A stretch of DNA of 64,000 nucleotides from Desulfosudis oleivorans Hxd3 (lineage in GTDB: Bacteria; Desulfobacterota; Desulfobacteria; Desulfobacterales; Desulfosudaceae). The stretch spans positions 2,483,001 through 2,547,000 of the forward strand of contig NC_009943.1 in NCBI RefSeq assembly GCF_000018405.1. The letters run 5' to 3'. The translations under genes were made by a program, and so were the position numbers. Below are positions 12-17,057 of the stretch, in pieces; within the stretch, counting starts at the first letter, position 1, and each line of letters begins with the position of its first letter. The notes under the pieces were generated by a model, which did not search any database, had not been told where the DNA came from, and saw nothing but the letters and a program-made list of their open reading frames with translations.

Positions 12-866
12 TCAGGTTCCTTCCCATACAATCCACTTACTTTTGTATCTCACAAATTTTATAACCGGTGTATATATAACCTCTTTCTCGCCTTTAACCT
101 TGAATAAATAATGACTTTTGAATATTTCATTTTTATAGCTTCCAGAATATACATAAACAACATTTTCTCCTAAAATCATTTTTAAATTATTTATATCAAA
201 TTCGATTTTTTGTTTTCCCTGCAAATAATATTGAGTATGAATTCGTTTTATATAATTATTTTTTAATTCGAACCAATTATTATTATATGCCATAGGCTGC
301 CATAAATCAGGGCCTGCTAACAATAGATCATATAATTCGCGTGATTTTTTTGTCTCAAGAATCATTTTTAAATTAAAAAGTATTTCTTTTATATCGTTCT
401 TTGTTTTTTCATTATCATTAATTGTTGCCATAAAAAAGGGTAGTAGATAGTTAATGTCAGATGAAAAAAATCCTGTTTCTTCAATATCACCAGAGCCTAT
501 ATACTTTTTATCTATAACACTGATTTTTTGATTATTATGATTAATTTTTGCAATTTTAAGATATATATTTTCTGAGGAAAAACCTTTTATAGAATAACTA
601 TTATTCTTTGGTTTTATCCATTCATTAATAGAGATTACCTCCCCGTACCCTGTATAATAATGAATCGGATTTTTATTTATATATAGCATTAAACCACCTT
701 TAATGTTTTTTCCTGATGCAGCTGCTGAAGAATCATCCTCAAAATTATTTGGGTTTGTTCCTATGAACAAAGCATAATTATGATTATTGTTATGCCTATT
801 TTTGTTGAGACACGACAAAAATAGAATTAGTCCGATTAAAACTGCAATTATTAATGTTTTCTTCAT
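12..866 (-). CDS. Putative lipoprotein, partner of RHS cassette 3
   Basis: About 284 residues. The start is set at the Met that opens a lysine pair, a hydrophobic stretch and a lipobox-like LFLSC, so the protein is probably a lipoprotein anchored by the Cys near residue 19. An upstream in-frame start would put extra residues before the signal peptide and is disfavoured. The mature part is Lys/Asn/Ile-rich and AT-rich in codon use, unlike the GC-rich RHS core. The C-terminal third, with alternating strands and a final KWIVWEG-like end, resembles small alpha/beta folds, but I recognise no family. It lies 28 bases behind the stop of the third RHS cassette, the place where an immunity or tip-partner gene is expected. 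The partner role is inferred from position only. Confidence 0.6.
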   Translation of the reverse strand: MKKTLIIAVLIGLILFLSCLNKNRHNNNHNYALFIGTNPNNFEDDSSAAASGKNIKGGLMLYINKNPIHYYTGYGEVISINEWIKPKNNSYSIKGFSSENIYLKIAKINHNNQKISVIDKKYIGSGDIEETGFFSSDINYLLPFFMATINDNEKTKNDIKEILFNLKMILETKKSRELYDLLLAGPDLWQPMAYNNNWFELKNNYIKRIHTQYYLQGKQKIEFDINNLKMILGENVVYVYSGSYKNEIFKSHYLFKVKGEKEVIYTPVIKFVRYKSKWIVWEGT

Positions 867-894
867 CTTAATTGTGTCTTTCAATACTGTTTCA

Positions 895-3117
895 TTAAAT
901 AACTTTATACATATTACCAACAGGCCCATAGACTTCCAGGCTTCCCTTTACCCCCGCTTTAAGAATTAATTCGATATTATTCCCTGCGTTGGTACTCAAA
1001 CTCCAATCAAATTGAGGCTCTTTAAATTCTGGATAAATTGGAAAAGTAAGTTGTAACTGACTGCTCGACCAATAAATACCTGCGCCACCAATAAAATACC
1101 CTACAACAGTTGCTTTAGCACCTACGCCTTCTGCAGGGCAAGTGGACATTCCAGATATCTTTATCCCACCATCTGCTTTAAAACCTGAAGTTGGCATACT
1201 TGCTTCGACACCAACAGAAAGATCCAAGGATACAGATACTTTTCCCCATTGTTCAGTGTTCCCAGTTTTTTGGTTTTTACAACAGAAAGTTTCACCTGAA
1301 CAGTTTGCAGTCAATTTCCACCAAAAAAGGGCAGCAGGCGTCGGTCCTTTTGCAATTACATATGACATTTTTACAGACGACGATATTGATGGTATTTCTA
1401 CTGATAATCCATAAAAAATGGAACTGGGCTTATCGATACCTTTGGGAATTCCTCCGTTTACACTTAAATCTCTGGAATACTGATTCAAATAACCGTCTGG
1501 TCCACTATAACGTCCTTGTCTGCCCAACAAATCAATAAAATCTATACTGTTATTCCAGACAAAGGCATAAAGATTATGGCCACCATTTTCCTGAATCGGA
1601 TCCCTACTCACCCACCTCCCCATCTCCGGCTCATAATACCGGTATCCGTAGTAATACAGCCCGGTCTCGGTATCATAATATTTTGTGCTAAACCGGAACA
1701 CATTCTCCTCCGCCATAGTCCCGCTCTTATGAATCAGCCCGCCAAACGGCGAGTATTCATAAGCCGCTGCCACGGTGCCGTCCGCTGCATTGACCATGCG
1801 CCCCACATTGCCGTTGGCATCATGGCAGTAGAGGTAAGTATTCACCCCGTCGGTCATGGAAAGCAGGCCGCCCACGCCGCCAGCCTCTTGCAGGGATTGG
1901 GAGAGGTCAAGTCCCCACACATAGGACTTTGTCACAGCTCCGGCGCCGTCCAGTTCCTGGATCAGGTTCCACCCGTCATAGACAAATAAGCTGGCAGCTG
2001 ACAGCTGGTAGCTGCCGGCGCTGAATGTATAGACGAACTTCTTCACCCTTCGGCCCATGTAGTCGTAGGCAAACTCAACTTTTTTATCCCCTTCCGCCGG
2101 GGTTTTGGGTTCCACGGAGATGAGGCGGTTTTCCGCGTTCCAGGTATAAACCATGCCCTGCTGGTGGGTAAGGTTGCCGTCATCATCATAGACCGGGTTA
2201 TCTGTTACGCCGCCAGTTTCAATGGCATCGTACTGGTTTAAATTATCGGGCGTATAGGTGGTGGTAGCCTCGACCAGGGTATCCGGCAGGTCCGGGGTCA
2301 GGTCCATGGTCTTGCGCTGGCCAAGGGCGGTGTAGGTATAATCATATTGGGCAATATCGGCCCCACCAAACGTGTGCCTGACCTGGGTTTTGAGGTCCCG
2401 GTTCGGCTCATAGACAAAATCCGTGACCAGATTCTCCATGGTCAGGGTGTCGACAAAATCAGAGTCGGCCACATACGCATAGGTGGCCGTCTTTTCTCCG
2501 GCCCCGGTGTTCCAGGTGACGCCTGCAAACCGGCCGGTGGAAGGCTCATACCCATAGGCCACGCTGTAGCCTGTAAGGCTCAACCCGGTGGGCCGGCCCA
2601 CCACGCCGGAGGTCTCGTATGTGCGGGTGATGGTTTTGCTGTACAGCCCGCCGGAAGCGCCGTCGATGGTTTCTGTGACGGGTTGCAGGGCACTGTTATA
2701 GGCAAAGGTGCGCGTGCCCACAACATCGTCCACGGTATACATCTGCCCGGCCCGGGTGTAGGCATAGGCCACATCCGGCGTGGTGCCAGAATAATCAATG
2801 CCAGTGAGTTCCCCGGTATTCAGATCATAGGCATAGGTGGTGACAAGGGTGCTGTTATCCCGTGCCCAGGTGCGGGTAGCCAGCCGGTTGGCAGCGGTGT
2901 AGGTGTAGGCCGTGGATTTGGCCTCATCATCGGTCTTGGCAGTGAGCAGGCCGGTGGACGGCTGATAGGTCCATGTGGTGATATCTGGATCGCCGGTGGA
3001 ACCTGATGGCCACTCTGTCCCATCCCAGCCAGAGCCGTTGCGGAACATGTGCATCTGGGTCATCTGGCCGAAGGCCAAATTACCGACAATGTCGCTATAT
3101 GCCGCATTCATCTGCAT
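895..3117 (-). CDS. RHS/YD-repeat cassette 3, 5'-truncated, with variable tip
   Basis: 740 residues. It begins with a short peptide (MQMNAAYSDI) and joins the RHS core in mid-repeat at about residue 18. It has YD repeats, the RHS core end (GRWVSRDPIQENGG, then NLYAF and an IDLLG ending) and a unique tip of about 208 residues. It has no signal peptide, so as it stands it is not the secreted form. The start ATG has a GGAG 12 bases upstream, a poor but conserved arrangement also seen in cassettes 1 and 2. The tip has CC at tip residues 80-81, a GGI-x-IS stretch and a later CP, and its Gly-rich alternating segments suggest beta structure. I recognise no toxin domain. It is probably a displaced or donor cassette; expression is uncertain. 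Confidence 0.75.
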   Translation of the reverse strand: MQMNAAYSDIVGNLAFGQMTQMHMFRNGSGWDGTEWPSGSTGDPDITTWTYQPSTGLLTAKTDDEAKSTAYTYTAANRLATRTWARDNSTLVTTYAYDLNTGELTGIDYSGTTPDVAYAYTRAGQMYTVDDVVGTRTFAYNSALQPVTETIDGASGGLYSKTITRTYETSGVVGRPTGLSLTGYSVAYGYEPSTGRFAGVTWNTGAGEKTATYAYVADSDFVDTLTMENLVTDFVYEPNRDLKTQVRHTFGGADIAQYDYTYTALGQRKTMDLTPDLPDTLVEATTTYTPDNLNQYDAIETGGVTDNPVYDDDGNLTHQQGMVYTWNAENRLISVEPKTPAEGDKKVEFAYDYMGRRVKKFVYTFSAGSYQLSAASLFVYDGWNLIQELDGAGAVTKSYVWGLDLSQSLQEAGGVGGLLSMTDGVNTYLYCHDANGNVGRMVNAADGTVAAAYEYSPFGGLIHKSGTMAEENVFRFSTKYYDTETGLYYYGYRYYEPEMGRWVSRDPIQENGGHNLYAFVWNNSIDFIDLLGRQGRYSGPDGYLNQYSRDLSVNGGIPKGIDKPSSIFYGLSVEIPSISSSVKMSYVIAKGPTPAALFWWKLTANCSGETFCCKNQKTGNTEQWGKVSVSLDLSVGVEASMPTSGFKADGGIKISGMSTCPAEGVGAKATVVGYFIGGAGIYWSSSQLQLTFPIYPEFKEPQFDWSLSTNAGNNIELILKAGVKGSLEVYGPVGNMYKVI
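1597..3070 (-). repeat. RHS core direct repeat, copy 4 (shortest)
   Basis: The nucleotide sequence is very close to the cores at 4191-6399, 8176-10383 and 11930-14079. Homology on the 5' side of the gene stops near 3070, inside a repeat that continues in the other copies, so this copy lost about 0.7 kb more of its 5' part. Its middle part (about 2117-2820) is nearly identical to about 12391-13090 of the full-length gene. Confidence 0.85.
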
Positions 3118-3133
3118 GCCGCTTACAGGCTCC
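3096..3133 (-). repeat. Cassette 5' boundary motif, divergent copy
   Basis: A 38-base stretch that matches 6449-6486 and 10434-10471 with a handful of substitutions. In the gene direction it contains GGAG, 12 bases, ATG, and codes for M-x-M-(N/D)-A-A-Y. The substitutions keep this peptide pattern, so it may be a captured translation start. Confidence 0.6.
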
Positions 3134-3147
3134 CTCCCTGCGGTTTC

Positions 3148-3214
3148 TTACTCTTGCTCTTACTCGTGCTCTTGATCGGAACAAAAAGACGATTACGAGC
3201 AAGAGCAAGATTCA
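3148..3214. repeat. Hexamer-repeat hairpin at cassette boundary
   Basis: The left arm is built of CTCTTG/CTCTTA/CTCGTG-like hexamers. The right arm carries the inverted form (GAGCAAGAGCAAG), and an AACAAAAA loop lies between them. The elements at 6501-6587 and 10486-10572 have the same design with different hexamers but the same AACAAAAA loop. Confidence 0.55.
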
Positions 3215-3306
3215 CATACCGGTGCTTCATTCAACCGGACAACCACGGTTGCCCCTGCCCGTTGCAGCGCAACCAAAATCCAAGCTGCCGGGCAATGATT
3301 CTTTTG

Positions 3307-3335
3307 GTACTTCTCTTTGCGCCAAAGAAAAGTAC
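3307..3335. repeat. Stem-loop, otherwise empty intergenic stretch
   Basis: GTACTTCTCTTTG and CAAAGAAAAGTAC form a 13-base stem with one mismatch and a CGC loop. Stem-loops of this wording are common dispersed repeats in proteobacteria. The rest of the 390 bases between 3118 and 3507 holds the hexamer hairpin and no gene that I can support. Confidence 0.5.
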
Positions 3336-3507
3336 ATAGAAAAATTTATTCCTTATTTTAAAAAGTGCTTTGCTGAATCTTACAACCGCCTTTTTACCCC
3401 CGAAAAGGCCCTTTTAAGCCTGTTTTTACCCCGCTTTTTGTTGAAAAATTATTGATATTTCAATTTGTTACCGTGGTCCGACCCAGGCGCCGAACCGACG
3501 CCCGTAA

Positions 3508-3699
3508 TCACTTCATTCTTTTCGAGTAGAAAGGCCAAAAAAGAATAAATACAATTACAGCACCAACAGAAAAATGCAAATAAAAGAATACTTCAATTTT
3601 TTCTTCCATTCCAAATAATATTAGAAGCATGCTACTAACTATTGCGATACCAACGACTGTTCCCCAACAGGCAAAAATAATTTTAATTTTTCTTTTCAT
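3508..3699 (-). CDS. Small two-helix membrane protein, partner of RHS cassette 2
   Basis: 63 residues. There are two clear hydrophobic segments (about residues 8-29 and 37-56) separated by a short charged EEK loop, with basic residues at both ends (MKRKIK at the start, SKRMK at the end). This is a typical two-pass inner membrane protein with both termini predicted in the cytoplasm. An AGGAG-type ribosome binding site lies at a good distance before the ATG. It starts 41 bases behind the stop of the second RHS cassette, in the immunity-gene position. The family is unknown. If it is an immunity protein, the toxin tip would be expected to act on or at the membrane; this is inference. Confidence 0.6.
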   Translation of the reverse strand: MKRKIKIIFACWGTVVGIAIVSSMLLILFGMEEKIEVFFYLHFSVGAVIVFILFWPFYSKRMK

Positions 3700-3740
3700 A
3701 GGTCTCCTATCAAAACACTATAAGTAAATAAAATCAGTTT

Positions 3741-6470
3741 TCAATCATTACAACATCCTATTTTCTTTTTGGATACAACCGTATCCGAACAAAAAACCCA
3801 AGTGGTGGATACACCATAAACACCAACATCGATCCCAGCAGATGGTCCTTTACTATCACCTTGGACATTTACCGAACGTGCAATAAGAGTATTTTCATGT
3901 TTGAAATAGTATCGAGTTCGCGGACATCCAGATCTAGATGAAATACCACCACCCGTAACGCCAACAGGAGGTGTTCCTTTAAGGCCAATCCCTCCTCCTC
4001 CACAGATAGTTAGCACTTTAACTTTGAATAATATATTCCTCTGGCAACACGTTGTACTGCTATAAGATGCCTCTGCACCAACCCCATAATAGGCACCACC
4101 ACCTATGCCCACCAGTCCTTTGGGATCGATTATATTAATAGGATCATTCCCCACAAACCCATACAAATTAAATCCGCCCTCCTCCTCCAACGGATCCCTA
4201 CTCACCCACCTCCCCATCTCCGGCTCATAATACCGGTATCCGTAGTAATACAGCCCACTCTCCCCATCCCAATATTTTGTGCTGAACCGAAACACATTCT
4301 CATCCGCCATAACCCCGCTTTTATGAATCAGCCCGCCAAACGGCGAGTATTCATAAGCCGCTGCCACGGTGCCGTCCGCGGCATTGACCATGCGCCCCAC
4401 ATTGCCGTTGGCATCAAAGCAATACAGATATGTATTCACCCCGTCGGTCATGGCCAGCAGGCCCCCTACCCCTCCTGCACCCTGCACGCTCTGAGAAAGG
4501 TCAAGTCCCCACACATAGGACTTTGTCACAGCTCCGGCGCCATCCAGCTCCTGGATCAGGTTCCACCCGTCATAGACAAATAAGCTGGCAGCTGACAGCT
4601 GGTAGCTGCCGGCGCTGAATGTATAGACAGTCTTTTTCACTCTTCGGCCCATGTAGTCGTAGACAAACTCCACTTTTTTATCTCCGTCCACCGGAGTGGC
4701 GGGCGTCACGGAGATGAGGCGGTTTTCTCCGTTCCAGGCATAAACCATGCCCTGCTGGTGGGTAAGGTTGCCGTCATCGTCATAGACCGGGTTGTCGGTG
4801 ACGCCGCCTTTTTCAATGGCATCATACTGGTTTAAATTATTTGGCGTGTAGGTGGTATTTGCCTCGACCAGGGTATCCGGCAGGTCCGGGGTCAGGTCCA
4901 TGGTCTTGCGCCGGCCAAGGCTGTCGTGAGTATAATCATACTGCACCACTCCTGTGCCGTTGTGGGTATGCTTAACCTGGGTTTTGAGGTCCCGGTTCGG
5001 CTCATGGGCAAAATCCGTGACCAGATTCTCCATTGTCAGGGTGTCGACAAGGTCAGAGTCTGCAACATACGCATAGGTGGCCGTCTTTTCTCCGGCCCCG
5101 GTGTTCCAGGCAACGCCGCTAAACCGGCCCGTGGAAGGTTCATACCCATAGGCCACGCTGTAGCCTGTAAGGCTCAACCCGGTGGGCCGGCCAACCACGC
5201 CGGAGGTCTCGTAGGTGCGGGTAATGGTTTTGCTGTAAAGCCCGCCGGAAGCGCCGTCTATGGTTTCTGTGACGGGTTGCAGGGCACTATTATAGGCAAA
5301 GGTGCGCGTGCCCACAACATCGTCCACGGTATACACCTGCCCGGCCCGGGTGTAGGCATAGGCCACGTCCGGGGTGGTGTCAGAATAATCAATGCCCGTG
5401 AGTTCCCCGGTATTCAGATCATAGGTGTAGGTGGTGACAAGGGTGCCGTTATCCCGTGCCCAGGTGCGGGTAGCCAGCCGGTTGGCGGCGGTGTAGGTGT
5501 AGGCCGTGGATTTGGCCTCATCATCGGTCTTGGCAGTGAGCAGGCCGGTGGACGGCTGATAGGTCCAGGTGGTGATATCTGGATCTCCGGTGGAACCTGA
5601 TGGCCACTCTGTCCCGTCCCAACCAGAGCCGTTGCGGAACATGTGCATCTGGATCATCTGGCCGTAAGCGTCATACACAAACTTTACCGGTTCGGCCGCG
5701 CTGCCCCATTTATACGTCAGTTGTCCGAGGCTGTTGTAGGCGTAGCGGATGGTTTTGCCCCGGACATTGGTCTCTGTTTCACGGCGGCCGGCTGCATCAT
5801 AAATGAATGTAGTCCGGTTGCCTGCGGCATCTTCCACATAATCCACCTGGCCCAGGCTGTTGTAATGGGTAACAGTGGTGCCGGTGCGGGAATCGGTGGC
5901 CCCGGTCCGGCGGCCCAGTCCATCGCAGGAAAAGGTGGTGGTCACACCGGTTTTGCTCTGCCGGGATTGCAGCAGTCCGTTTGTCGTGACAGTAACTTCG
6001 TTAAAGGATGCATCCGGGTAGTCCACTGTCTGCGTTACAGTTTGGGTGGCAGGGTCGATAACGGTCCGGGCAACGGTCTGGTTGCCGTTAATGTCAGTAG
6101 AAACGGTCTCATTGACAAGGCCGTTTGCGCCCAGGCCGGTGAGCCTGGTTTTTTGAATGCCCGTGGTGGTGGGGGTGCTGCTGCCGGTGACGGCAAAAAT
6201 TTTGCCGGTGGTTTCCTGCCACCAGTCGGTGCCGTCGTTGGAGTATTGAGTGACACTTTCCTGAATGCGGTCTGACGATCCGTCATCCAGCACGCCGTTA
6301 TCATTAACATCCAGACCGGAGCGGACCATGTTGCCCAACTCGTCATATTCATAAAGCGTATCGGCCAGGCCCGGAGCGGATGTGGCGATCAGGCGGCCGT
6401 CCGCAGAAGATAGAAAGGGCATCCCCCGCACAAATCCGGCAATGGTGTTATATGCCGCATCCATCCGCAT
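3741..6470 (-). CDS. RHS/YD-repeat cassette 2, 5'-truncated, Cys/Gly-rich tip
   Basis: 909 residues from the ATG chosen here. An in-frame TTG at 6500 would add 10 residues but has no ribosome site; the chosen ATG lines up with the start of cassette 3. After the MRMDAAYNTI-type start peptide it joins the RHS core exactly at a GRLIATSAPG sequence that lies deep inside the full-length protein. YD repeats follow, then the core end (RDPLEEEGGFNLYGF, IDPKGL) and a tip of about 123 residues. The tip has seven Cys, including CC at tip residues 22-23 and 120-121, and long Gly-rich stretches. It shares with tip 3 a CC...KVxV...GGI...CP pattern. No signal peptide. The activity of the tip is not recognised. 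Confidence 0.75.
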   Translation of the reverse strand: MRMDAAYNTIAGFVRGMPFLSSADGRLIATSAPGLADTLYEYDELGNMVRSGLDVNDNGVLDDGSSDRIQESVTQYSNDGTDWWQETTGKIFAVTGSSTPTTTGIQKTRLTGLGANGLVNETVSTDINGNQTVARTVIDPATQTVTQTVDYPDASFNEVTVTTNGLLQSRQSKTGVTTTFSCDGLGRRTGATDSRTGTTVTHYNSLGQVDYVEDAAGNRTTFIYDAAGRRETETNVRGKTIRYAYNSLGQLTYKWGSAAEPVKFVYDAYGQMIQMHMFRNGSGWDGTEWPSGSTGDPDITTWTYQPSTGLLTAKTDDEAKSTAYTYTAANRLATRTWARDNGTLVTTYTYDLNTGELTGIDYSDTTPDVAYAYTRAGQVYTVDDVVGTRTFAYNSALQPVTETIDGASGGLYSKTITRTYETSGVVGRPTGLSLTGYSVAYGYEPSTGRFSGVAWNTGAGEKTATYAYVADSDLVDTLTMENLVTDFAHEPNRDLKTQVKHTHNGTGVVQYDYTHDSLGRRKTMDLTPDLPDTLVEANTTYTPNNLNQYDAIEKGGVTDNPVYDDDGNLTHQQGMVYAWNGENRLISVTPATPVDGDKKVEFVYDYMGRRVKKTVYTFSAGSYQLSAASLFVYDGWNLIQELDGAGAVTKSYVWGLDLSQSVQGAGGVGGLLAMTDGVNTYLYCFDANGNVGRMVNAADGTVAAAYEYSPFGGLIHKSGVMADENVFRFSTKYWDGESGLYYYGYRYYEPEMGRWVSRDPLEEEGGFNLYGFVGNDPINIIDPKGLVGIGGGAYYGVGAEASYSSTTCCQRNILFKVKVLTICGGGGIGLKGTPPVGVTGGGISSRSGCPRTRYYFKHENTLIARSVNVQGDSKGPSAGIDVGVYGVSTTWVFCSDTVVSKKKIGCCND
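4191..6399 (-). repeat. RHS core direct repeat, copy 3
   Basis: The 5' half (about 5411-6398) is nearly identical, base for base, to 13091-14078 of the full-length gene, with only a few differences. The middle differs clearly (for example HTHNGTG instead of HTFGGAD in protein). Homology to the full-length gene ends sharply at about 6399. Confidence 0.85.
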
Positions 6471-6500
6471 GACGTTTACAGACTCCGCCTTATAATCCAA

Positions 6501-6587
6501 ATCGAAATCGGGATCGGGATCGGGATCGAATTGCCGTCAGAACAAAAACGTATCGATACCGATTTCGATAGCGATAGCGATTTCGAC
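6501..6587. repeat. Hexamer-repeat hairpin (ATCGGG type)
   Basis: The left arm is a run of ATCGAA/ATCGGG hexamers. The right arm has GATACC/GATTTC/GATAGC hexamers in inverse sense, and an AACAAAAACG loop lies between. Arms of 6-base period recur at 10486-10572, 25631-25660 and 28409-28478. Confidence 0.7.
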
Positions 6588-6645
6588 AGGGACAATGATT
6601 TTTCTGCCATTCTCAATCGCCCTTCCTGCCTTCCCGACCGGCCGC

Positions 6646-6674
6646 ACTGGACTCCGGGTCAAGCCCGGAATGAC
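6646..6674. repeat. Dispersed palindrome (CCGGGTCAAGCCCGG)
   Basis: A short palindrome around TCCGGG and CCCGGA that ends in AATGACA, a wording widely dispersed in proteobacterial intergenic DNA. A second copy lies in the duplicated flank at about 10631-10659. Confidence 0.55.
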
Positions 6675-6732
6675 AAACATGTCCGGCTGTTCCGGATAAA
6701 CCCTTACTTCTTATCCCCTCCAGTGCTTCGCA

Positions 6733-6755
6733 CACCGGCAGACGAGCTGCCGGTG
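6733..6755. repeat. REP-like palindrome
   Basis: CACCGGCAG and CTGCCGGTG form a perfect 9-base stem with an ACGAG loop, followed by CCACCC. It belongs to a family also seen at 10718-10740, 41755-41785 and 59041-59067. Confidence 0.6.
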
Positions 6756-6772
6756 CCACCCGCGGCGCACCC

Positions 6773-7534: not shown

Positions 7535-7536
7535 TA

Positions 7537-10455
7537 TTATTTCGCTCCTATTGATATATTAACATTGTTAATATATTCTGTATTAAAAAATCCCTCTTCC
7601 CATGTAGTTATCCCATCAAAATTATAGTCAAATTCTTCTGAACAATCACATTCAGTTTCCCCATACTCGTAAACAGTTTTTCCAACCTTCCCTTTTATAT
7701 TCACAGTAAATACATCCCAATCTGAATAGTATTTTACAGTCATATTGCATTTGCAATCAGATTCACTTTTCGTATATTTCTTTATTATTACAGTATTATA
7801 GATAAAACCCCTCGCTTTATTCGCGGTCTGTTTTTGCAATATACCTCTTGCTTTTTTAAGGGTGTATTCTACAAATGGTTTAGTAGTAGAGCTAATAGCA
7901 TTAACTACGGCTTTAACTCCCATTTTTGCAAATCCCCATATCGTATCATCAAAATCAATGCCAGCAGCACAAAAGAGGATCGCCCTACTTTTTAAGGAAT
8001 CGGAAAAACCAGGACCGATATATGTATTATAATACTTACGTTTCATGTCTAGTAGTAACATACTCATAAACTCTTCTTTGTATGAATTTATGCTACGAAG
8101 CCCATAGGGATCATAATCATTAACAGCATCATTCCCCACAAACCCATACAAATTATATCCGCCCTCTTCCCCCAACGGATCCCTCGACATCCACCTCCCC
8201 ATCTCCGGCTCATAATACCGGTATCCGTAATAATACAGCCCACTCTCCCCATCAAAATACTTCGTCGAGAACCGAAACACATTTTCATCCGCCATGGCCC
8301 CGCTCTTATGAATCAGCCCGCCAAACGGGGCATATTCATAAGCTGCCGCAACCGTTCCATCTGCCGCGCTCACCATGCGGCCCACGTTGCCGTTGGCATC
8401 ATGGCAGTAGAGGTAAGTATTCACCCCGTCGGTCATGGCCAGCAGGCCGCCCACGCCACCGGCTCCTTGCAGGCTCTGGGAGAGGTCAAGGCCCCACACA
8501 TAGGACTTTTGCACCGCACCGGTTCCATCCAGCTCCTGGATCAGGTTCCACCCGTCATAGACAAATAAGCTGGCAGCTGACAGCTGGTAGCTGCCGGCGC
8601 TGAATGTATAGACAGACTTCTTCACCCTTCGGCCCATGTAGTCGTACACAAAGGCCAGTTTGGTATTTCCTTCGGTCGGGGTCTCGGGTTCCACGGAGAT
8701 GAGGCGATTTTCCCCGTTCCAGGCATAAACCATGCCCTGCTGGTGGGTAAGGTTGCCGTCATCATCATAGACCGGGTTATCTGTTACGCCGCCAGTTTCA
8801 ATGGCATCGTACTGGTTTAAATTATCGGGCGTATAGGTGGTGGTAGCCTCGACCAGGGTATCCGGCAGGTCCGGGGTCAGGTCCATGGTCTTGCGCTGGC
8901 CAAGGGCGGTGTAGGTATAATCATATTGGGCAATATCGGCCCCACCAAACGTGTGCCTGACCTGGGTTTTGAGGTCCCGGTTCGGCTCATAGACAAAATC
9001 CGTGACCAGATTCTCCATGGTCAGGGTGTCGACAAAATCAGAGTCGGCCACATACGCATAGGTGGCCGTCTTTTCTCCGGCCCCGGTGTTCCAGGTGACG
9101 CCTGCAAACCGGCCGGTGGAAGGCTCATACCCATAGGCCACGCTGTAGCCTGTAAGGCTCAACCCGGTGGGCCGGCCCACCACGCCGGAGGTCTCGTATG
9201 TGCGGGTGATGGTTTTGCTGTACAGCCCGCCGGAAGCGCCGTCGATGGTTTCTGTGACAGGTTGCAGGGCACTATTATAGGCAAAGGTGCGCGTGCCCAC
9301 AACATCGTCCACGGTATACACCTGCCCGGCCCGGGTGTAGGCATAGGCCACATCCGGGGTGGTGTCAGAATAATCAATACCCGTGAGTTCCCCGGTATTC
9401 AGATCATAGGTGTAGGTGGTGACAAGGGTGCCGTTATCCCGTGCCCAGGTGCGGGTAGCCAGCCGGTTGGCAGCAGTATAGGTGTAGGCCGTGGATTTGG
9501 CCTCATCATCGGTCTTGGCGGTGAGCAGGCCGGTGGACGGCTGATAGGTCCAGGTGGTGATATCTGGATCTCCGGTGGAACCTGATGGCCACTCTGCCCC
9601 GTCCCAGCCAGAGCCGTTGCGGTACATGTGCATCTGGGTCATCTGGCCGTAAGCGTCATACACAAACTTTACCGGCTCGACCGCGCTGCCCCATTTATAC
9701 GCCAGTTGCCCGAGGCTGTTGTAGGCGTAGCGGATGGTTTTGCCAAGAGCATTGGTCTCTGTTGTCCGGCGGCCGGCTGCATCATAGGTAAAAGTAGTCC
9801 GACTGCCTGCGGCATCTTCCACATAATCCACCTGGCCCAGGCTGTTGTAATGGGTAACAGTGGTGCCGGTGCGGGAATCGGTGGCCCCTGTACGTCGGCC
9901 CAGGCCGTCATACGAGAAGGTGGTGGTCACCCCGGTTTTGCTCTGCCGGGATTGCAACAACCCGTTTGTCGTGACAGTAATTTCGTTAAAGGATGCATCC
10001 GGGTAGTCCACGGTCTGCGTTACAGTTTTGGTGGCAGGGTCGATAACGGTCCGGGCTGTCGTCTGGTTGCCGTTAATGTCAGTAGAAACGGTCTCATTGA
10101 CAAGGCCGTTTGTGCCCAGGCCGGTGAGCCGGGTTTTTTGAATGCCCGTGGTGGTGGGGGTACTGCTGCCGGTGACGGCAAAAATTTTGCCGGTGGTTTC
10201 CTGCCACCAGTCGGCGCCGTCACTGGTGTACTGGGTGGTGCTTTCCTGAATACGGTCTGACGACCCGTCATCCAGAACGCCGTTGGCATTGACATCCAGA
10301 CCGGAGCGGACCATGTTGCCCAATTCGTCATATTCATAAAGCGTATCGGCCAGGCCCGGAGCGGATGTGGCAATCAGGCGGCCGTCCGCAGAAGATAGAA
10401 AGGGCATCCCCCGCACAAATCCGGCAATGGTGTTATATGCCGCATCCATCCGCAT
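7537..10455 (-). CDS. RHS/YD-repeat cassette 1, 5'-truncated, tip with two CxC motifs
   Basis: 972 residues from the ATG that matches cassettes 2 and 3 (a TTG at 10485 is in frame but unsupported). The layout is the short start peptide, entry into the RHS core at GRLIATSAPG, YD repeats, the core end (SRDPLGEEGGYNLYGF, YDPYGL) and a tip of about 186 residues. The tip is AT-rich in codons. Its first half is probably helical (FAKMGVKAVVNAISS) and its second half carries DCKC and ECDC, two CxC pairs 33 residues apart, which may bind metal or form disulfides. It has no signal peptide and no toxin family that I recognise. The lipoprotein gene behind it is coupled to its stop codon. Confidence 0.75.
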   Translation of the reverse strand: MRMDAAYNTIAGFVRGMPFLSSADGRLIATSAPGLADTLYEYDELGNMVRSGLDVNANGVLDDGSSDRIQESTTQYTSDGADWWQETTGKIFAVTGSSTPTTTGIQKTRLTGLGTNGLVNETVSTDINGNQTTARTVIDPATKTVTQTVDYPDASFNEITVTTNGLLQSRQSKTGVTTTFSYDGLGRRTGATDSRTGTTVTHYNSLGQVDYVEDAAGSRTTFTYDAAGRRTTETNALGKTIRYAYNSLGQLAYKWGSAVEPVKFVYDAYGQMTQMHMYRNGSGWDGAEWPSGSTGDPDITTWTYQPSTGLLTAKTDDEAKSTAYTYTAANRLATRTWARDNGTLVTTYTYDLNTGELTGIDYSDTTPDVAYAYTRAGQVYTVDDVVGTRTFAYNSALQPVTETIDGASGGLYSKTITRTYETSGVVGRPTGLSLTGYSVAYGYEPSTGRFAGVTWNTGAGEKTATYAYVADSDFVDTLTMENLVTDFVYEPNRDLKTQVRHTFGGADIAQYDYTYTALGQRKTMDLTPDLPDTLVEATTTYTPDNLNQYDAIETGGVTDNPVYDDDGNLTHQQGMVYAWNGENRLISVEPETPTEGNTKLAFVYDYMGRRVKKSVYTFSAGSYQLSAASLFVYDGWNLIQELDGTGAVQKSYVWGLDLSQSLQGAGGVGGLLAMTDGVNTYLYCHDANGNVGRMVSAADGTVAAAYEYAPFGGLIHKSGAMADENVFRFSTKYFDGESGLYYYGYRYYEPEMGRWMSRDPLGEEGGYNLYGFVGNDAVNDYDPYGLRSINSYKEEFMSMLLLDMKRKYYNTYIGPGFSDSLKSRAILFCAAGIDFDDTIWGFAKMGVKAVVNAISSTTKPFVEYTLKKARGILQKQTANKARGFIYNTVIIKKYTKSESDCKCNMTVKYYSDWDVFTVNIKGKVGKTVYEYGETECDCSEEFDYNFDGITTWEEGFFNTEYINNVNISIGAK
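8176..10383 (-). repeat. RHS core direct repeat, copy 2
   Basis: The 3' part (about 8240-8690) is nearly identical to about 11935-12385 of the full-length gene, and the middle matches cassette 3. The 5' part is a diverged version (NANGVLDDG, STTQYTSDGADWW). Homology to the full-length gene ends at about 10383, the same breakpoint as in copy 3. Confidence 0.85.
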
Positions 10456-10749
10456 GACGTTTACAGACTCCGCCTTATAATCCAAATCGAAATCGGGATC
10501 GGGATCGGGATCGAATTGCCGTCAGAACAAAAACGTATCGATACCGATTTCGATAGCGATAGCGATTTCGACAGGGACAATGATTTTTCTGCCATTCTCA
10601 ATCGCCCTTCCTGCCTTCCCGACCGGCCGCACTGGACTCCGGGTCAAGCCCGGAATGACAAACATGTCCGGCTGTTCCGGATAAACCCTTACTTCTTATC
10701 CCCTCCAGTGCTTCGCACACCGGCAGACGAGCTGCCGGTGCCACCCGCA
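10384..10749. repeat. Flank repeat, copy of 6400-6764
   Basis: Nearly identical to the flank of cassette 2, including the boundary motif at 10434-10471. The copies part company just after the REP-like palindrome, at the CCACCCGC sequence, which marks one end of the duplicated unit. Confidence 0.85.
10486..10572. repeat. Hexamer-repeat hairpin, second copy
   Basis: Same arms and AACAAAAACG loop as 6501-6587, carried along in the duplicated flank. Confidence 0.7.
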
Positions 10750-10785
10750 CAACACCCGCTAGGCAAGCTGCCGGTGCCACCCGCG
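10718..10785. repeat. REP-like palindrome plus partial second copy
   Basis: CACCGGCAG/CTGCCGGTG stem at 10718-10740 followed by CCACCCGC. At 10761-10785 there is a damaged second unit with GGCAAGCTGCCGGTGCCACC, so a tandem array of this element seems to end here. Confidence 0.55.
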
Positions 10786-10794
10786 ACCCCGGCA

Positions 10795-11235
10795 CTACGG
10801 CACTTCCCTTTCCTTATCCTCTGAAGAACTTTCTTTTATGCATTCCCTTATTAAGCCTATTGCTTCTTTATTACTGCTCCCATACTGATTCATAATATAG
10901 TCAGTAGCCTTTAACGGGTCACCTCCATGTTCTATTAAAAGAAGAATAATATCTTTGCGATTCAATAATGCAGCAGTACCAATGGGATCATCAAAGACAA
11001 AAGATTCTCCATCTTGTTGCTGAAGACGGTTAATTGCCTCTGGATTTTTTTTCAAAATTTTCAGAATTTCCTCTGTCGATGCATTTGATTCTATTGCCTC
11101 AAGTAAAGAAGGATACTCTTCATAAGAAACTGTCTTTTCTATACTTATACAAAATTTCAATACGAAAACTAAAGCGATCACTCCAATAATAATTCCAAAA
11201 GACAGACCGAGTTTTAATGCTTTCTTTTCAGTCAT
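10795..11235 (-). CDS. Membrane-anchored ankyrin-repeat protein, partner of full-length RHS
   Basis: 146 residues. The N-terminus has basic residues and one transmembrane segment (about 10-28). The rest has ankyrin-like helices (SLLEAIESNASTEEI, GTAALLNRKDIILLLIEHG, GDPL), with the clearest repeat at about residues 85-112. Its start lies 14 bases behind the stop of the full-length RHS gene, with an AGGAAAG site before the ATG. The position fits an immunity protein, and ankyrin proteins are known immunity partners in polymorphic toxin loci. The N-terminal anchor places the ankyrin domain outside the cytoplasm or at the membrane; which side is not certain. Confidence 0.65.
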   Translation of the reverse strand: MTEKKALKLGLSFGIIIGVIALVFVLKFCISIEKTVSYEEYPSLLEAIESNASTEEILKILKKNPEAINRLQQQDGESFVFDDPIGTAALLNRKDIILLLIEHGGDPLKATDYIMNQYGSSNKEAIGLIRECIKESSSEDKEREVP

Positions 11236-11249
11236 TCATCTAATCTTTC

Positions 11250-14200
11250 CTATAAACACGATTTACATTTCCCCTTCGCTTCCTGCCTACACTGCCTCTT
11301 CTTTGCATCAAGCCTAAAATCAGAAACTTCACAGACTTTCGGTCCTAATCCCCAATTCATAGAAGTAGTAACTCTTCCAGAAATCCATTTATCTCCCCAT
11401 CGGGTTTTCCATGAATGGCAGGCATCGCCACCGCATGAACATTCACAATTCACCTCACAGGAGATTTTAACCCAACAGGGTCTTCCTATTTCGATATCTT
11501 TCTTGGCTTCGCCGGGAAGCGAAGAATAATAACGTTTTTCTCTATTGTAGGTCCAAAATAAATCAGCATCTTCGCCACCTGATACGATTTTCAATACATA
11601 CTTTATGATTGTCTCTACTTTAAAATTGGATTTATCATAGTCAATATCAACTGTTCTGCCGGCTACAGGAGCCTCATTCACATCAGGGCATCCTTTACAT
11701 TTAAATAATAAATACAATGATTTCGGCTTGTACCATGTTATGTCGATATACATAGAATCAGAGCTATAGCCTTCAGACCCTCCAACCTGAACAAGTCCAA
11801 GCAGATCAAAGAAATTAGTAGGGTCATTCATTACAAAAGAATAAAGATTCAGCCCACCACTTTCTCCGACCGGGTCTCTGCTGATCCACCGTCCGGTTTC
11901 AGGATCGTAGTACCTCAAGCCGTATTCATAGAGCCCACTCTCCCCATCCCAATACTTCGTCGAGAACCGAAACACATTCTCATCCGCCATAACCCCGCTT
12001 TTATGAATCAGCCCGCCAAACGGGGCATATTCATAAGCTGCCGCAACCGTTCCATCTGCCGCGCTCACCATGCGGCCCACGTTGCCGTTGGCATCATGGC
12101 AGTAGAGGTAAGTATTCACCCCGTCGGTCATGGCCAGCAGGCCGCCCACGCCACCGGCTCCTTGCAGGCTCTGGGAGAGGTCAAGGCCCCACACATAGGA
12201 CTTTTGCACCGCACCGGTTCCATCCAGCTCCTGGATCAGGTTCCACCCGTCATAGACAAATAAGCTGGCAGCTGACAGCTGGTAGCTGCCGGCGCTGAAT
12301 GTATAGACGGCCTTTTTCACCCTTCGGCCCATGTAGTCGTACACAAAGGCCAGTTTGGTATTTCCTTCGGTCGGGGTCTCGGGTTCCACGGAGATGAGGC
12401 GGTTTTCCGCGTTCCAGGTATAAACCATGCCCTGCTGGTGGGTAAGGTTGCCGTCATCATCATAGACCGGGTTATCTGTTACGCCGCCAGTTTCAATGGC
12501 ATCGTACTGGTTTAAATTATCGGGCGTATAGGTGGTGGTAGCCTCGACCAGGGTATCCGGCAGGTCCGGGGTCAGGTCCATGGTCTTGCGCTGGCCAAGG
12601 GCGGTGTAGGTATAATCATATTGGGCAATATCGGCCCCACCAAACGTGTGCCTGACCTGGGTTTTGAGGTCCCGGTTCGGCTCATAGACAAAATCCGTGA
12701 CCAGATTCTCCATGGTCAGGGTGTCGACAAAATCAGAGTCGGCCACATACGCATAGGTGGCCGTCTTTTCTCCGGCCCCGGTGTTCCAGGTGACGCCTGC
12801 AAACCGGCCGGTGGAAGGCTCATACCCATAGGCCACGCTGTAGCCTGTAAGGCTCAACCCGGTGGGCCGGCCCACCACGCCGGAGGTCTCGTATGTGCGG
12901 GTGATGGTTTTGCTGTACAGCCCGCCGGAAGCGCCGTCGATGGTTTCTGTGACGGGTTGCAGGGCACTGTTATAGGCAAAGGTGCGCGTGCCCACAACAT
13001 CGTCCACGGTATACATCTGCCCGGCCCGTGTGTAGGCATAGGCCACATCCGGCGTGGTGCCAGAATAATCAATGCCAGTGAGTTCCCCGGTATTCAGATC
13101 ATAGGTGTAGGTGGTGACAAGGGTGCCGTTATCCCGTGCCCAGGTGCGGGTAGCCAGCCGGTTGGCGGCGGTGTAGGTGTAGGCCGTGGATTTGGCCTCA
13201 TCATCGGTCTTGGCAGTGAGCAGGCCGGTGGACGGCTGATAGGTCCAGGTGGTGATATCTGGATCTCCGGTGGAACCTGATGGCCACTCTGTCCCGTCCC
13301 AACCAGAGCCGTTGCGGAACATGTGCATCTGGATCATCTGGCCGTAAGCGTCATACACAAACTTTACCGGTTCGGCCGCGCTGCCCCATTTATACGTCAG
13401 TTGTCCGAGGCTGTTGTAGGCGTAGCGGATGGTTTTGCCCCGGACATTGGTCTCTGTTTCACGGCGGCCGGCTGCATCATAAATGAATGTAGTCCGGTTG
13501 CCTGCGGCATCTTCCACATAATCCACCTGGCCCAGGCTGTTGTAATGGGTAACAGTGGTGCCGGTGCGGGAATCGGTGGCCCCGGTCCGGCGGCCCAGTC
13601 CATCGCAGGAAAAGGTGGTGGTCACACCGGTTTTGCTCTGCCGGGATTGCAGCAGTCCGTTTGTCGTGACAGTAACTTCGTTAAAGGATGCATCCGGGTA
13701 GTCCACTGTCTGCGTTACAGTTTGGGTGGCAGGGTCGATAACGGTCCGGGCAACGGTCTGGTTGCCGTTAATGTCAGTAGAAACGGTCTCATTGACAAGG
13801 CCGTTTGCGCCCAGGCCGGTGAGCCTGGTTTTTTGAATGCCCGTGGTGGTGGGGGTGCTGCTGCCGGTGACGGCAAAAATTTTGCCGGTGGTTTCCTGCC
13901 ACCAGTCGGTGCCGTCGTTGGAGTATTGAGTGACACTTTCCTGAATGCGGTCTGACGATCCGTCATCCAGCACGCCGTTATCATTGACATCCAGGCCGGA
14001 GCGGACCATGTTGCCCAACTCGTCATATTCATAAAGCGTATCGGCCAGGCCCGGAGCGGATGTGGCAATCAGGCGGCCGGTAACGTCATAGGTGTTTTCA
14101 GTTGCCTGCGTGCCGGTGTAGCCGGGTTTTTCCGTGCGGATCATGTTACCGGCCATGTCATAGGTGGTGATCTCGTAACGGTCGGACGCAGGGCTGCCGA

Positions 14201-17057
14201 TATCGACACGGGTCCATTGGGAACCATCGGCATTGACGCCATAGGTATAGTATTGAGAAACAACGCCGGTGCCGGTGATGCTTCTGATCCGGCCATCAAG
14301 GTAAGTGTCGGTGATCTCGGTGGCCCCGCCCGGCCGGGTGACAGTGGTGGTGCGACCGCTGTTCTGATAGTCATAGTCGGTGGTCAGGCCCGCAGTGTCC
14401 GTGGACGTAATTAATCGGCCGGCCAGGTCGTAAATGTTCTGGCTGGAAAGGGTCAGGCCCCCGCCGGTGACGGTTTCTGTCAGGCGCCGGCCGCTGCCGT
14501 CGTAGGTCCAGGTGGTGGTGATGTTGTTCTTTACGGCCTGGGTGAGCCGGCCGAGCGGGTCATAACCGGTATAGTCGGTGACCATGCCATAGATATCGAT
14601 TTCGTTTTCCTTGTTGCAGCATCCCCATGTGGCTGCGGTGTGGGTGCCGTTCGAGTACCAGGTATCGGTAAGATGATGATCGTCGTCATAGGCCATGACC
14701 GACCAGGAGACCGGCTCATATCCGGTGCCGGTATAAACAAGGGTCTGCCGGGCCAGTTCCCTGCCGGTTTCGTCCCTGATAATGATCTCCCGGGTGGTTT
14801 TGTTGGCAATGCCGTTGGGCGCGGCAGCTGTGCCGTGGGTAACGGTAACGCGCACATCGGTGCCGCTGCCGGTGATAAATGTGCCCAGGCCTGGATCGGC
14901 GGGCGTGTAGATGCCGGACTCATAGGTATAGGTCTCTTTTGTGTTGTCCGGGTGGATCTGCCCCTTGATTTCGCCAGCGCCAGCACCTCCCCAGGGAAGA
15001 TAAGTGACGGTAACGGTACGGCGGTTGGCCGTGTTGCCGTAGGCTGCCGCGGGCGTGGCCGCAATTTCGTGAATTTCGGTGACCACGTTGTTTGTGTCGT
15101 CTTTCTGATAGACATAATAGTCTTTAGACACCACATGCCCTTCGGTGGTTTCTGTGACAGTGCGGGGGCGCAGCTCGTACTCCACGTCATTGGTATCGCC
15201 TGACCCGCTGATGGGAGTGTAATCATAGGTGATCACCCGCACGGCCATTTCTGCCGCAGTGATGGGCTGGTCCAGCCAGGAGCGCGCCTCTTTGATTTTG
15301 CGGGACCGGCCGTCATACTCATATTTTACCCAGGAGCCGTCCGCATAGGTTCTGCTTTCTATCCACCCGCAGTTGCCGGTGGTGCAGCCGGCCTCCCCTT
15401 CCTCATAATAGTCGGTGACAGTGGTCAGGGCCGCGTTGTCCGGGTCCACCACTTTTTCGATTTCAAGGGGCCGGGCATGGCCGCCACACGTGATGTCTTT
15501 ATATGTGGTGCGGATAACCGAAGAGGCCGTGCCTGAGCCGTTTTTAATGGTCTCGGTTTCAATCCGGTTGCCGTTGGTATCCGTTACCTTGGACTTGGCA
15601 ATCACCTGGGCCACTGTGGCGCCGTCGCCATTTGAAAGGGTCCAGGTGGAAGCGACCTCGTCCCATTCATAGGCGTAGACGGTCTGGGATCCGTCTTTCC
15701 AGTAGGTCATTGTCAGACGGTTCTCGGCGGTCTCTTTGTCCGGATTTTCAACAATCAGGACGGCAATGGGCTGAATATTGGTATCATAAGGATAAAATCC
15801 TTTAATTGTGAATGCGTTCAGCCATCGACTGGAATAGGGATCTACCCGGTAGATACTGGCTTCATATTCATACTCATCAATAACATTAATGTCGACACAA
15901 ACCTCCCGTGAAACAACCTGCCCGAGAGTGCCGTCGGGATTCAAAGCTTTCCAGGAATCACCGTTTAAATACACATCAAGGGCGTCGGGCGTGACCAAAT
16001 CGGCCGATACCGTATCGGCCTGTAACAGGATCTCGCCTGCAGAAGTTCCGTCTTTTTCCCTGCCAAGGCTGAGCTTTGCCTTGATGCTCCCGTTTTCAGC
16101 ACCAAAAGAGCCTCCTGAAGAACAACTGCCGCCACTGCCGCAGGAATCATCACAACCCACGGTAATGTTGATGGTGTCCGTACAGCCCGGTACTATATTT
16201 GATGTGGCCTTGACAAGAACATGACCGGCACCCGAAACCGCATATACGGTAATCGATGCGGCAGAGTCGACCACCAGAGCACCCGGCACATCAGAGGCGG
16301 GTGAAATATTTACAACCACATCCTTTTCTGGGACAACCTCCCATCTGATGTCCCCCTGGCTGGCGCAACCCGGATCCTTAATAATCGTATACTCTTCTGG
16401 AGCGATGCGTGTCTTTGTGGCCTTGGCCTGCAGATCGCAATCGCAGAGGTCGCCCTTACCGTCGTCATCGCAATCCCTCTGGTCGGGATTGGGCACCGAT
16501 GGACAGTTGTCGGTACAGTCGCCCACGCCGTCTCCGTCGATGTCGCTTAAGGCGTCGATGCATACGACTTTTTTGCTGATAAGATTATATCCGAAAACCT
16601 CAGAGCGGGTACCTGGCCACGTGTTATCGACATCAGGCCATTGAAAGCATGAATAATTTTCACTGTACCCGTAAACCGTAGAACCCTTGATGCGACCCCA
16701 GCCATGGCCATCTTTCGAGGGCAGCGTAAGACACTCCTCGCAATCGCCCTGGGCTTGAGTAGTTGCCAACGTGCTGTTGAAAATCTCCGCAAATGTCTTT
16801 TGCCCGGGCCACCCGCAATCGGTCGCACCGACACCGCCAAGCCCGGAAGGGACAAGTCTCTGATACTGCTTTAACCCGCCTTGAATCTTATAATATAGAT
16901 CATTCTCAACACCGTCAGGATCGCCGGGAATCAGACAGCAATCCGGCCCCTTGCATACCGTGTAGTCAGCAAAAACACTTGGAGCAAAAACAGCGTGAAT
17001 AATCATGGCCAGTATACAGGCGAGATGAACTTTGAATAGTATTTTATGTTTTCCCAT
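11250..17057 (-). CDS. Full-length secreted RHS/YD-repeat protein with Cys-rich tip
   Basis: 1935 residues. The ATG is preferred over a GTG three codons upstream because GGTGG lies five bases before it. Order: Sec signal peptide ending near AVFAPSVFA (about residue 30); a Cys-rich N-terminal domain; a thrombospondin type 3-like Ca-binding stretch (DIDGDGVGDCTDNC, DCDDDGKGDLCDC; about 170-210); an Ig-like or beta-rich part; a Gly/Ser/Cys linker; many YD repeats (about 470-1700); the RHS core end (ETGRWISRDPVGE, NLYSF, DLLGL); and a unique tip of about 180 residues with 12 Cys, including NCECSC. The layout resembles WapA/RHS polymorphic toxins exported by Sec. The tip activity is not recognised. 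This is the only RHS copy here with a signal peptide, so it is probably the expressed one. Confidence 0.85.
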   Translation of the reverse strand: MGKHKILFKVHLACILAMIIHAVFAPSVFADYTVCKGPDCCLIPGDPDGVENDLYYKIQGGLKQYQRLVPSGLGGVGATDCGWPGQKTFAEIFNSTLATTQAQGDCEECLTLPSKDGHGWGRIKGSTVYGYSENYSCFQWPDVDNTWPGTRSEVFGYNLISKKVVCIDALSDIDGDGVGDCTDNCPSVPNPDQRDCDDDGKGDLCDCDLQAKATKTRIAPEEYTIIKDPGCASQGDIRWEVVPEKDVVVNISPASDVPGALVVDSAASITVYAVSGAGHVLVKATSNIVPGCTDTINITVGCDDSCGSGGSCSSGGSFGAENGSIKAKLSLGREKDGTSAGEILLQADTVSADLVTPDALDVYLNGDSWKALNPDGTLGQVVSREVCVDINVIDEYEYEASIYRVDPYSSRWLNAFTIKGFYPYDTNIQPIAVLIVENPDKETAENRLTMTYWKDGSQTVYAYEWDEVASTWTLSNGDGATVAQVIAKSKVTDTNGNRIETETIKNGSGTASSVIRTTYKDITCGGHARPLEIEKVVDPDNAALTTVTDYYEEGEAGCTTGNCGWIESRTYADGSWVKYEYDGRSRKIKEARSWLDQPITAAEMAVRVITYDYTPISGSGDTNDVEYELRPRTVTETTEGHVVSKDYYVYQKDDTNNVVTEIHEIAATPAAAYGNTANRRTVTVTYLPWGGAGAGEIKGQIHPDNTKETYTYESGIYTPADPGLGTFITGSGTDVRVTVTHGTAAAPNGIANKTTREIIIRDETGRELARQTLVYTGTGYEPVSWSVMAYDDDHHLTDTWYSNGTHTAATWGCCNKENEIDIYGMVTDYTGYDPLGRLTQAVKNNITTTWTYDGSGRRLTETVTGGGLTLSSQNIYDLAGRLITSTDTAGLTTDYDYQNSGRTTTVTRPGGATEITDTYLDGRIRSITGTGVVSQYYTYGVNADGSQWTRVDIGSPASDRYEITTYDMAGNMIRTEKPGYTGTQATENTYDVTGRLIATSAPGLADTLYEYDELGNMVRSGLDVNDNGVLDDGSSDRIQESVTQYSNDGTDWWQETTGKIFAVTGSSTPTTTGIQKTRLTGLGANGLVNETVSTDINGNQTVARTVIDPATQTVTQTVDYPDASFNEVTVTTNGLLQSRQSKTGVTTTFSCDGLGRRTGATDSRTGTTVTHYNSLGQVDYVEDAAGNRTTFIYDAAGRRETETNVRGKTIRYAYNSLGQLTYKWGSAAEPVKFVYDAYGQMIQMHMFRNGSGWDGTEWPSGSTGDPDITTWTYQPSTGLLTAKTDDEAKSTAYTYTAANRLATRTWARDNGTLVTTYTYDLNTGELTGIDYSGTTPDVAYAYTRAGQMYTVDDVVGTRTFAYNSALQPVTETIDGASGGLYSKTITRTYETSGVVGRPTGLSLTGYSVAYGYEPSTGRFAGVTWNTGAGEKTATYAYVADSDFVDTLTMENLVTDFVYEPNRDLKTQVRHTFGGADIAQYDYTYTALGQRKTMDLTPDLPDTLVEATTTYTPDNLNQYDAIETGGVTDNPVYDDDGNLTHQQGMVYTWNAENRLISVEPETPTEGNTKLAFVYDYMGRRVKKAVYTFSAGSYQLSAASLFVYDGWNLIQELDGTGAVQKSYVWGLDLSQSLQGAGGVGGLLAMTDGVNTYLYCHDANGNVGRMVSAADGTVAAAYEYAPFGGLIHKSGVMADENVFRFSTKYWDGESGLYEYGLRYYDPETGRWISRDPVGESGGLNLYSFVMNDPTNFFDLLGLVQVGGSEGYSSDSMYIDITWYKPKSLYLLFKCKGCPDVNEAPVAGRTVDIDYDKSNFKVETIIKYVLKIVSGGEDADLFWTYNREKRYYSSLPGEAKKDIEIGRPCWVKISCEVNCECSCGGDACHSWKTRWGDKWISGRVTTSMNWGLGPKVCEVSDFRLDAKKRQCRQEAKGKCKSCL
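11930..14079 (-). repeat. RHS core direct repeat, resident copy (mosaic)
   Basis: By eye it divides into three blocks: about 11935-12390 matching cassette 1, about 12391-13090 matching cassette 3, and about 13091-14078 matching cassette 2. Each block is nearly identical to its partner and clearly less like the others, the signature of gene conversion or recombination. Confidence 0.75.

Follow-up and report, generated by a model that had tools for sequence, protein, structure and literature searches.

The RHS locus of Desulfosudis oleivorans Hxd3 analysed here is probably a polymorphic toxin locus, in which one exported RHS protein (T4) is accompanied by spare tip and immunity cassettes, and in which envelope-acting tips are met by immunity proteins of the envelope. 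T4 would be an exported toxin with a Sec-type signal, and T3, T2 and T1 would be displaced tip/immunity cassettes with enough core left for homologous recombination. Recombination through the core would place another tip behind the export signal; the small gene downstream of each tip would encode the immunity protein of that tip. T2 and other glycine-rich tips with polytopic partners would act on membranes, and tips with lipoprotein or single-anchor partners would act in the periplasm; this site of action would be the reason why the immunity proteins are envelope proteins. The sequences show the anatomy of the locus, the export signal of a single copy, the predicted anchors, the mosaic core, one tip/partner pair conserved as a unit, and the agreement between partner location and tip class over the order. 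What we infer is that the genes are expressed, that the tips are toxic and the partners protective, where the four window tips act, and that they reach a neighbouring cell.

The window, meaning the whole stretch of 64,000 nucleotides that was analysed, covers positions 2483001-2547000 of a genome that consists of a single contig of 3,944,167 bases. All four RHS ORFs and their partners lie on the minus strand, and an ORF check returned the coordinates of the original prediction. The features of the locus are:

11250-17057, minus strand: T4, full-length resident RHS protein of 1935 aa, with export signal, YD repeats and RHS core
11253-11792, minus strand: T4 tip, 180 aa with 12 Cys, without a recognised domain in domain and homologue searches
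10795-11235, minus strand: p4, candidate immunity protein of T4 with one N-terminal TM helix, starting 14 nt past T4
10385-10748, minus strand: T3 leader, 364 nt, identical to the T2 leader and containing dispersed genome repeats
7537-10485, minus strand: T3, displaced RHS core and tip with a TTG start and without an export signal
7540-8097, minus strand: T3 tip, 186 aa, without a domain
6773-7534, minus strand: p3, candidate immunity lipoprotein, lipobox LNGC
6400-6763, minus strand: T2 leader, 364 nt, identical to the T3 leader
3741-6500, minus strand: T2, displaced RHS core and tip with a TTG start and without an export signal
3744-4112, minus strand: T2 tip, 123 aa, rich in Gly and Cys
3508-3699, minus strand: p2, candidate immunity protein of T2, 63 aa, two TM helices
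3117-3341, minus strand: repeat upstream of T1
895-3117, minus strand: T1, shorter displaced RHS core and tip, without an export signal
898-1521, minus strand: T1 tip, 208 aa, without a domain
12-866, minus strand: p1, candidate immunity lipoprotein, lipobox LFLSC, start read by eye

Four cores with four different tips had been predicted, and both parts of this description hold. The RHS-associated core model TIGR03696 matched all four proteins (T4 4e-24, T3 1.6e-22, T2 2.3e-26, T1 4.1e-25), and no pair of the four window tips matched in a pairwise BLAST. The tips diverge just past the core boundary, which reads DPYGL in T3, DPKGL in T2, DLLGL in T4 and DLLG in T1; the boundary motif DPxG is thus exact in two of the four RHS proteins, and the tip is variable right after the boundary in all four. 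By position, a gene lies directly downstream of each tip, and tips and partners are AT-rich relative to the cores. The division into one resident gene and displaced cassettes was also borne out, T4 being full-length and T1-T3 being cores without an export signal. The export signal of T4, the only one among the four copies as predicted, is a hydrophobic segment at residues 6-24 of MGKHKILFKVHLACILAMIIHAVFAPSVFADYT. It was caught by the TM test alone and missed by a strict signal-peptide test and by the automatic N-terminus scan, in the latter case because of a His inside the hydrophobic core. A TSP3-like match in T4 lies below the Pfam cut-off.

Anchors were called with our own hydropathy/lipobox script, not with SignalP or TMHMM. 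By these calls p1 and p3 are lipoprotein-like, p2 has two TM helices and in p4 there is one, at the N-terminus, in agreement with the earlier claim that all four partners are anchored in the envelope. The description of p4 as a membrane-anchored ankyrin protein stands for the predicted anchor, while the ankyrin part is weak, with an Ank_3 match (E 0.0097) of 16.8 bits vs a cut-off of 22.3. None of the four tips and four partners reached a curated Pfam or NCBIfam cut-off, and no Imm family of Pfam scored above its cut-off in the four partners. Known cytoplasmic nuclease toxins, named in the original prediction as matches that would refute it, were found for none of the four tips in Pfam, NCBIfam or a sequence search of solved structures, and the same searches returned no envelope toxin and no structural relative either.

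The T1, T3 and T4 tips are singletons, T1 having been compared with the extracted tips only. In 340 genomes of the order, own genome included, the T3 tip had no other match and the T4 tip no convincing homologue. Three other loci matched the T4 tip weakly (L091, L092 and L093, E 0.001-0.006), and L091 and L092 were rejected as not RHS on inspection. A plasmid search with the T4 and T2 tips gave no match. AlphaFold2 gave no confident model for the two tips modelled: the pLDDT was 40 for T2, run together with one homologue, and 36 for T4, run alone.

The core of T4 is mosaic, composed of segments of T2, T1 and T3. The three orphans share approximately 1.5-2.2 kb of core with T4, with identities over the whole shared core of 92.7% (T2), 93.1% (T1) and 95.1% (T3). 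Runs of complete identity were compared with the longest run in 1000 shuffles of the mismatch positions, done for each core pair:

13078-13985, minus strand: T4 core run identical to T2, 908 nt (T4 nt 3082-3989); longest shuffled run 162
12381-13028, minus strand: T4 core run identical to T1, 648 nt; longest shuffled run 182
12420-12953, minus strand: T4 core run identical to T3 (and T1), 534 nt; longest shuffled run 293
12001-12308, minus strand: T4 core run identical to T3, 308 nt; barely above the longest shuffled run of 293

The cores of T2 and T3 are 90.5% identical overall with a longest identical run of 92, and their 364-nt leaders are identical. In our reading, recombination or gene conversion left the identical runs and the shared leader; such exchange was already proposed for the rhs genes of Salmonella (PMC3967940).

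The leaders of the orphan cassettes (6400-6763, 10385-10748 and 3117-3341) are partly made of dispersed repeats. Elements of the T2/T3 leader have at least 43 matches in the genome (40 of 242 candidates scored) and those of the repeat upstream of T1 at least 42 (40 of 116 candidates scored), self-matches included in both. A second copy of the T1 upstream repeat (91%) lies just outside the window beyond p1, at genome positions 2482685-2482922, and pieces of it are dispersed in the genome. Just beyond window position 1, downstream of p1, there is also a large ORF on the same strand (L009:1-5473). By eye, its N-terminus resembles a signal, its start is YD-like and it contains repeats of the calcium-binding type; it has no RHS core match.

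Four further RHS loci of the genome (L011-L014) repeat the arrangement of a tip followed by an anchored-type protein. The tip is followed by a 105-aa membrane protein in L011, by a lipoprotein-like protein of 162 aa, with a secreted ankyrin-like protein after it, in L012, by a 227-aa membrane protein in L013, and by a 97-aa two-helix protein in L014, where the RHS ORF is short (446 aa) and appears displaced. The L011, L012 and L013 proteins have signal-like N-termini, as judged by eye at loci L160-L162. The secreted ankyrin-like assignment of the gene after the L012 lipoprotein (L012:4971-6293) was also made by eye, and this gene is possibly a second immunity gene. With the window included, an anchored partner accompanies every one of the eight RHS tips in the genome.

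How much weight this count can bear depends on how often the script calls an anchor in ordinary genes. Among control ORFs of 100-370 aa, taken from the window and the set-1 loci described below at least 3 kb from RHS ORFs and possibly including spurious ORFs, 27/78 (35%) were positive, or 8/27 for the window alone. One may therefore ask if the tips are not specially envelope-directed, so that eight out of eight would be luck combined with a loose anchor call at an ordinary RHS locus of mixed targets. The control rate speaks for such a reading, as does the fact that the four window tips have no known function. At that rate, however, eight anchored partners out of eight have a p of approximately 2e-4, and the excess of anchored partners across the order and its split by recognised enzyme class, both described below, also make luck an improbable explanation.

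The order was surveyed with a core profile seeded by one sequence and rebuilt once from its matches, which found RHS cores in 21/40 and 92/194 genomes, own genome included. In set 1, which contains the own genome, 136 ORFs with a core match yielded 111 tips (closed ORF, profile end reached, tip of at least 40 aa), and 97 of them had a partner ORF of at least 60 aa; p3 was cut by the locus edge in this set. Set 2 consists of 60 regions picked by hand among the matches listed, with 91 tips and 74 partners, and is not a random sample, because long ORFs and arrays were favoured in the picking. Together, the two sets hold 202 RHS tips, 171 of which have a candidate partner, defined as the longest non-RHS ORF starting -60 to +300 nt from the tip stop. 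Some partners are therefore spurious, for example at L078.

Anchors were predicted for 63/97 partners in set 1 and 40/74 in set 2, in total 103/171 vs 27/78 control ORFs (p 2e-4). The difference was larger for multi-TM proteins, with 50/171 partners vs 3/78 control ORFs (p 1e-6). Three array-rich genomes reach only 43/88 together (G167 9/30, G034 25/42, G008 9/16), in line with the reading by luck, and the anchored partners outside these three amount to 60/83. In G167, 21/30 partners are unanchored. Many short RHS cores stand in arrays at loci L015-L040 of G034 and L041-L051 of G008, with 58 and 22 core matches, respectively. The densest region, G167:C1:1140000-1175000 (L140, L141), has 18 closed RHS tips in 35 kb, and some of its tips are near-identical yet have different downstream partner picks.

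The recognised tip domains differ with the location of the partner. Pfam matches of the 103 tips with an anchored partner include YkuD (3), Tlde1 (2+1), Phospholip_A2_3 (2), PLA2G12 (1+1), SLT (1), M23 (1) and CHAP (1), some of them on the same tip, and no nuclease family was listed among these tips. Other matches on this side are DUF4329, DUF5675, DUF4347, DUF6782, DUF6861, DUF6249, one Gly-zipper, CheR_N and MCM_N. The 68 tips with an unanchored partner gave WHH and colicin-DNase on one tip, AHH (1+1), GHH (1), M91 (1), Ntox33 (1), an XOO_2897 deaminase (1) and M23 (1), in addition to pretoxin HINT (2), further Hint and intein models and a weak ART-HYD1 (0.0097). M91 and deaminase families have a cytoplasmic site of action. 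Membrane-like families also occur on the unanchored side (Gly-zipper_Omp 2, YMGG zipper 1, TraT 1, MccV 1), together with RolB_RolC (2), C19orf12, Peptidase_M27 (weak, on the M91 tip), DUF6861, DUF4160 and AXH (2); DUF6861 and Gly-zipper tips are thus found beside anchored and unanchored partners alike. Downstream of the M23 tip on the unanchored side (L078) come a doubtful ORF and a gene that seems unrelated, which leaves this tip with no credible partner, anchored or other.

Approximately ten wall or lipid enzyme tips stand beside anchored partners, and at least six nuclease-like or other cytoplasmic toxins stand beside unanchored partners only. Counted as distinct tips, this makes 10 anchored and 1 unanchored for the wall/lipid class vs 0 and 6 for the nuclease-like class (Fisher p 6e-4), where YkuD and Tlde1 overlap (L019 has both) and the figure of ten assumes that two set-2 matches lie on different tips, being nine otherwise. 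These set-2 matches, to Tlde1 (1.8e-4) and PLA2G12 (1.4e-3), are weak and were counted from the family listing and not per tip; the ART-HYD1, MCM_N and CheR_N matches were left out of the class count. Composition adds to the picture. Tips beside multi-TM partners contain 13.9% Gly vs 9.9% in the rest (p 1e-5), and a TM-like stretch is present in 20/50 of them vs 4/53 tips beside signal-peptide or lipoprotein partners (p 1e-4), and in 16/68 tips with an unanchored partner. An enrichment of Cys in the tips was not significant (p 0.11). From the split of the enzyme classes, partner location most likely follows the target of the tip, the anchored partners being immunity proteins for envelope-acting tips. 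Activity of the window tips in the periplasm or at the membrane, as originally proposed, is accordingly probable.

In these searches, only the T2 tip of the window had relatives. They are RHS tips in three other genomes (L056; L096/L099; L097, the last weak at E 0.004), and small multi-TM proteins are encoded next downstream in all four family members. L052 is a fifth, looser member, with a one-anchor partner. A contig scan with two tips of the family reduced 55 pattern matches to one relative, and one locus of the family apparently lies on contig 332 of G330, of the same order. A search of solved structures with the family profile gave no match. Three relatives of the L011 tip, at 45-49% identity, occur in two genomes; two of them have multi-TM partners of 110-111 aa, and the third is followed only by a doubtful ORF that was scored unanchored. 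In G063 the L012 tip recurs together with its lipoprotein, at 53 and 45% identity.

The partners had alternatively been proposed to display or sort the tips, and one could extend this to tethering in place of immunity. All four being predicted envelope proteins that adjoin the tip gene is compatible with such a role. The four share no domain, though, the partner changes with the tip, one pair is conserved together, and few partners across the order resemble one another. Furthermore, tips with nuclease domains have unanchored partners, and the downstream position is that of immunity genes as described for known systems (PMC3150448). We therefore consider display or sorting a highly improbable role, and regard the partners as candidate immunity proteins.

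A further possibility is that the export route sets partner location. T4 crosses the periplasm of its producer, so immunity might be needed there whatever the tip does. Full-length RHS proteins with a script-called signal peptide indeed have 17 anchored and 4 unanchored partners, compared with 6 and 7 for those without; the scan takes any start in the first 110 codons and placed T4 and t99 among those without, both of which bear a signal by eye. On these counts, an export signal alone is unsupported as a predictor of an anchored partner. Against the export route stand the four exported RHS proteins with unanchored partners, or five with t99, an AHH nuclease tip, and also the missing nuclease families among the 103 tips with anchored partners. 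Nor does the T6SS status predict the anchored fraction. T6SS-negative genomes seemed richer in anchored partners when pairs were counted (p 0.002), but not by genome (28 vs 15, p 0.37) or without the array genomes (p 0.25), and the VipB status of some genomes was derived from their membership in the same 194-genome draw as the core scan. We thus consider the export route unlikely to determine where partners reside, and prefer the target of the tip as the explanation.

The sheath protein VipB/TssC, the sole T6SS marker searched, had no match in the own genome in a search that finds the E. coli control, and is present in 61/194 genomes of the order. With an export-signal N-terminus instead of PAAR, and no VipB match in its genome, T4 does not fit the T6SS Rhs effector type. 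A T6SS-type contrast exists within the order at L080 (G017), where tip t103 belongs to a protein with a PAAR-like N-terminus by eye, has an unanchored partner and comes from a VipB-positive genome.

Orphan rhs-CT/rhsI cassettes beside a main rhs gene are known from accounts of Salmonella LT2 (PMC3967940) and Dickeya (PMC3150448). As described there, the enterobacterial orphans resemble the present ones in that a single complete gene is accompanied by displaced fragments, which lack start or export signals, and that a small gene lies downstream of each. The near-identical core of Salmonella LT2 available for recombination (522 bp at 95%) is comparable to the shared core here. The Desulfosudis locus differs from what these accounts describe in its Sec-type N-terminus, the absence of a VipB match, the approximately 1.5-2.2 kb of shared core, and four partners predicted to be anchored. 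Membrane immunity to an RHS toxin has a precedent in Tsi5 of Pseudomonas aeruginosa, which has two predicted TM regions and protects against the pore-forming RHS toxin Tse5 (PMC9637101). An RHS tip with a small two-TM immunity protein recalls T2 and p2, a likeness at the level of gene layout; unlike the T4 system, Tse5 is described as a T6SS effector with a PAAR-like N-terminus.

The relevant sections of the survey of Zhang et al. 2012 (PMC3482391) describe all but a few immunity proteins as cytoplasmic, with Imm65 as the sole lipoprotein of the collection, and give the toxin's site as the reason why those of the L,D-peptidase are secreted or TM proteins. The envelope immunity proteins described there (Imm-CdiI, Imm17, Imm65 and those associated with the L,D-peptidase) are TM, secreted or lipoproteins, like the partners here; in comparison with those sections, anchored partners form the majority in our data, 103/171. 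Bacterial teneurin-like proteins, according to the description in PMC13018210, also have a YD-shell, are thought to be surface-exposed, and carry a variable C-terminal toxin with a downstream immunity gene, a likeness at that level. As orphan RHS cassettes are known, what our study adds is that anchored partners predominate and that two tip families, mostly with polytopic partners, have no Pfam match; given a limited search of the open literature, we do not claim these to be unreported.

Tentatively, the Sec-exported RHS proteins of this order might be an arsenal largely specialised on the envelope of neighbouring cells. In that case two tip families, each with four members, could represent new classes that act on membranes and are countered by small polytopic immunity proteins: the Cys-rich T2 family and the Gly-rich L011 family of AIDFGGGY type. 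With the envelope as the target, the tip would not need to enter the cytoplasm. This raises the question of the route to a neighbour for an RHS protein that carries a Sec-type signal and is encoded in a genome in which no T6SS sheath gene was matched. For RHS tips of unknown function, the location of the partner may offer a simple rule, by which the target could be guessed from the neighbouring gene.
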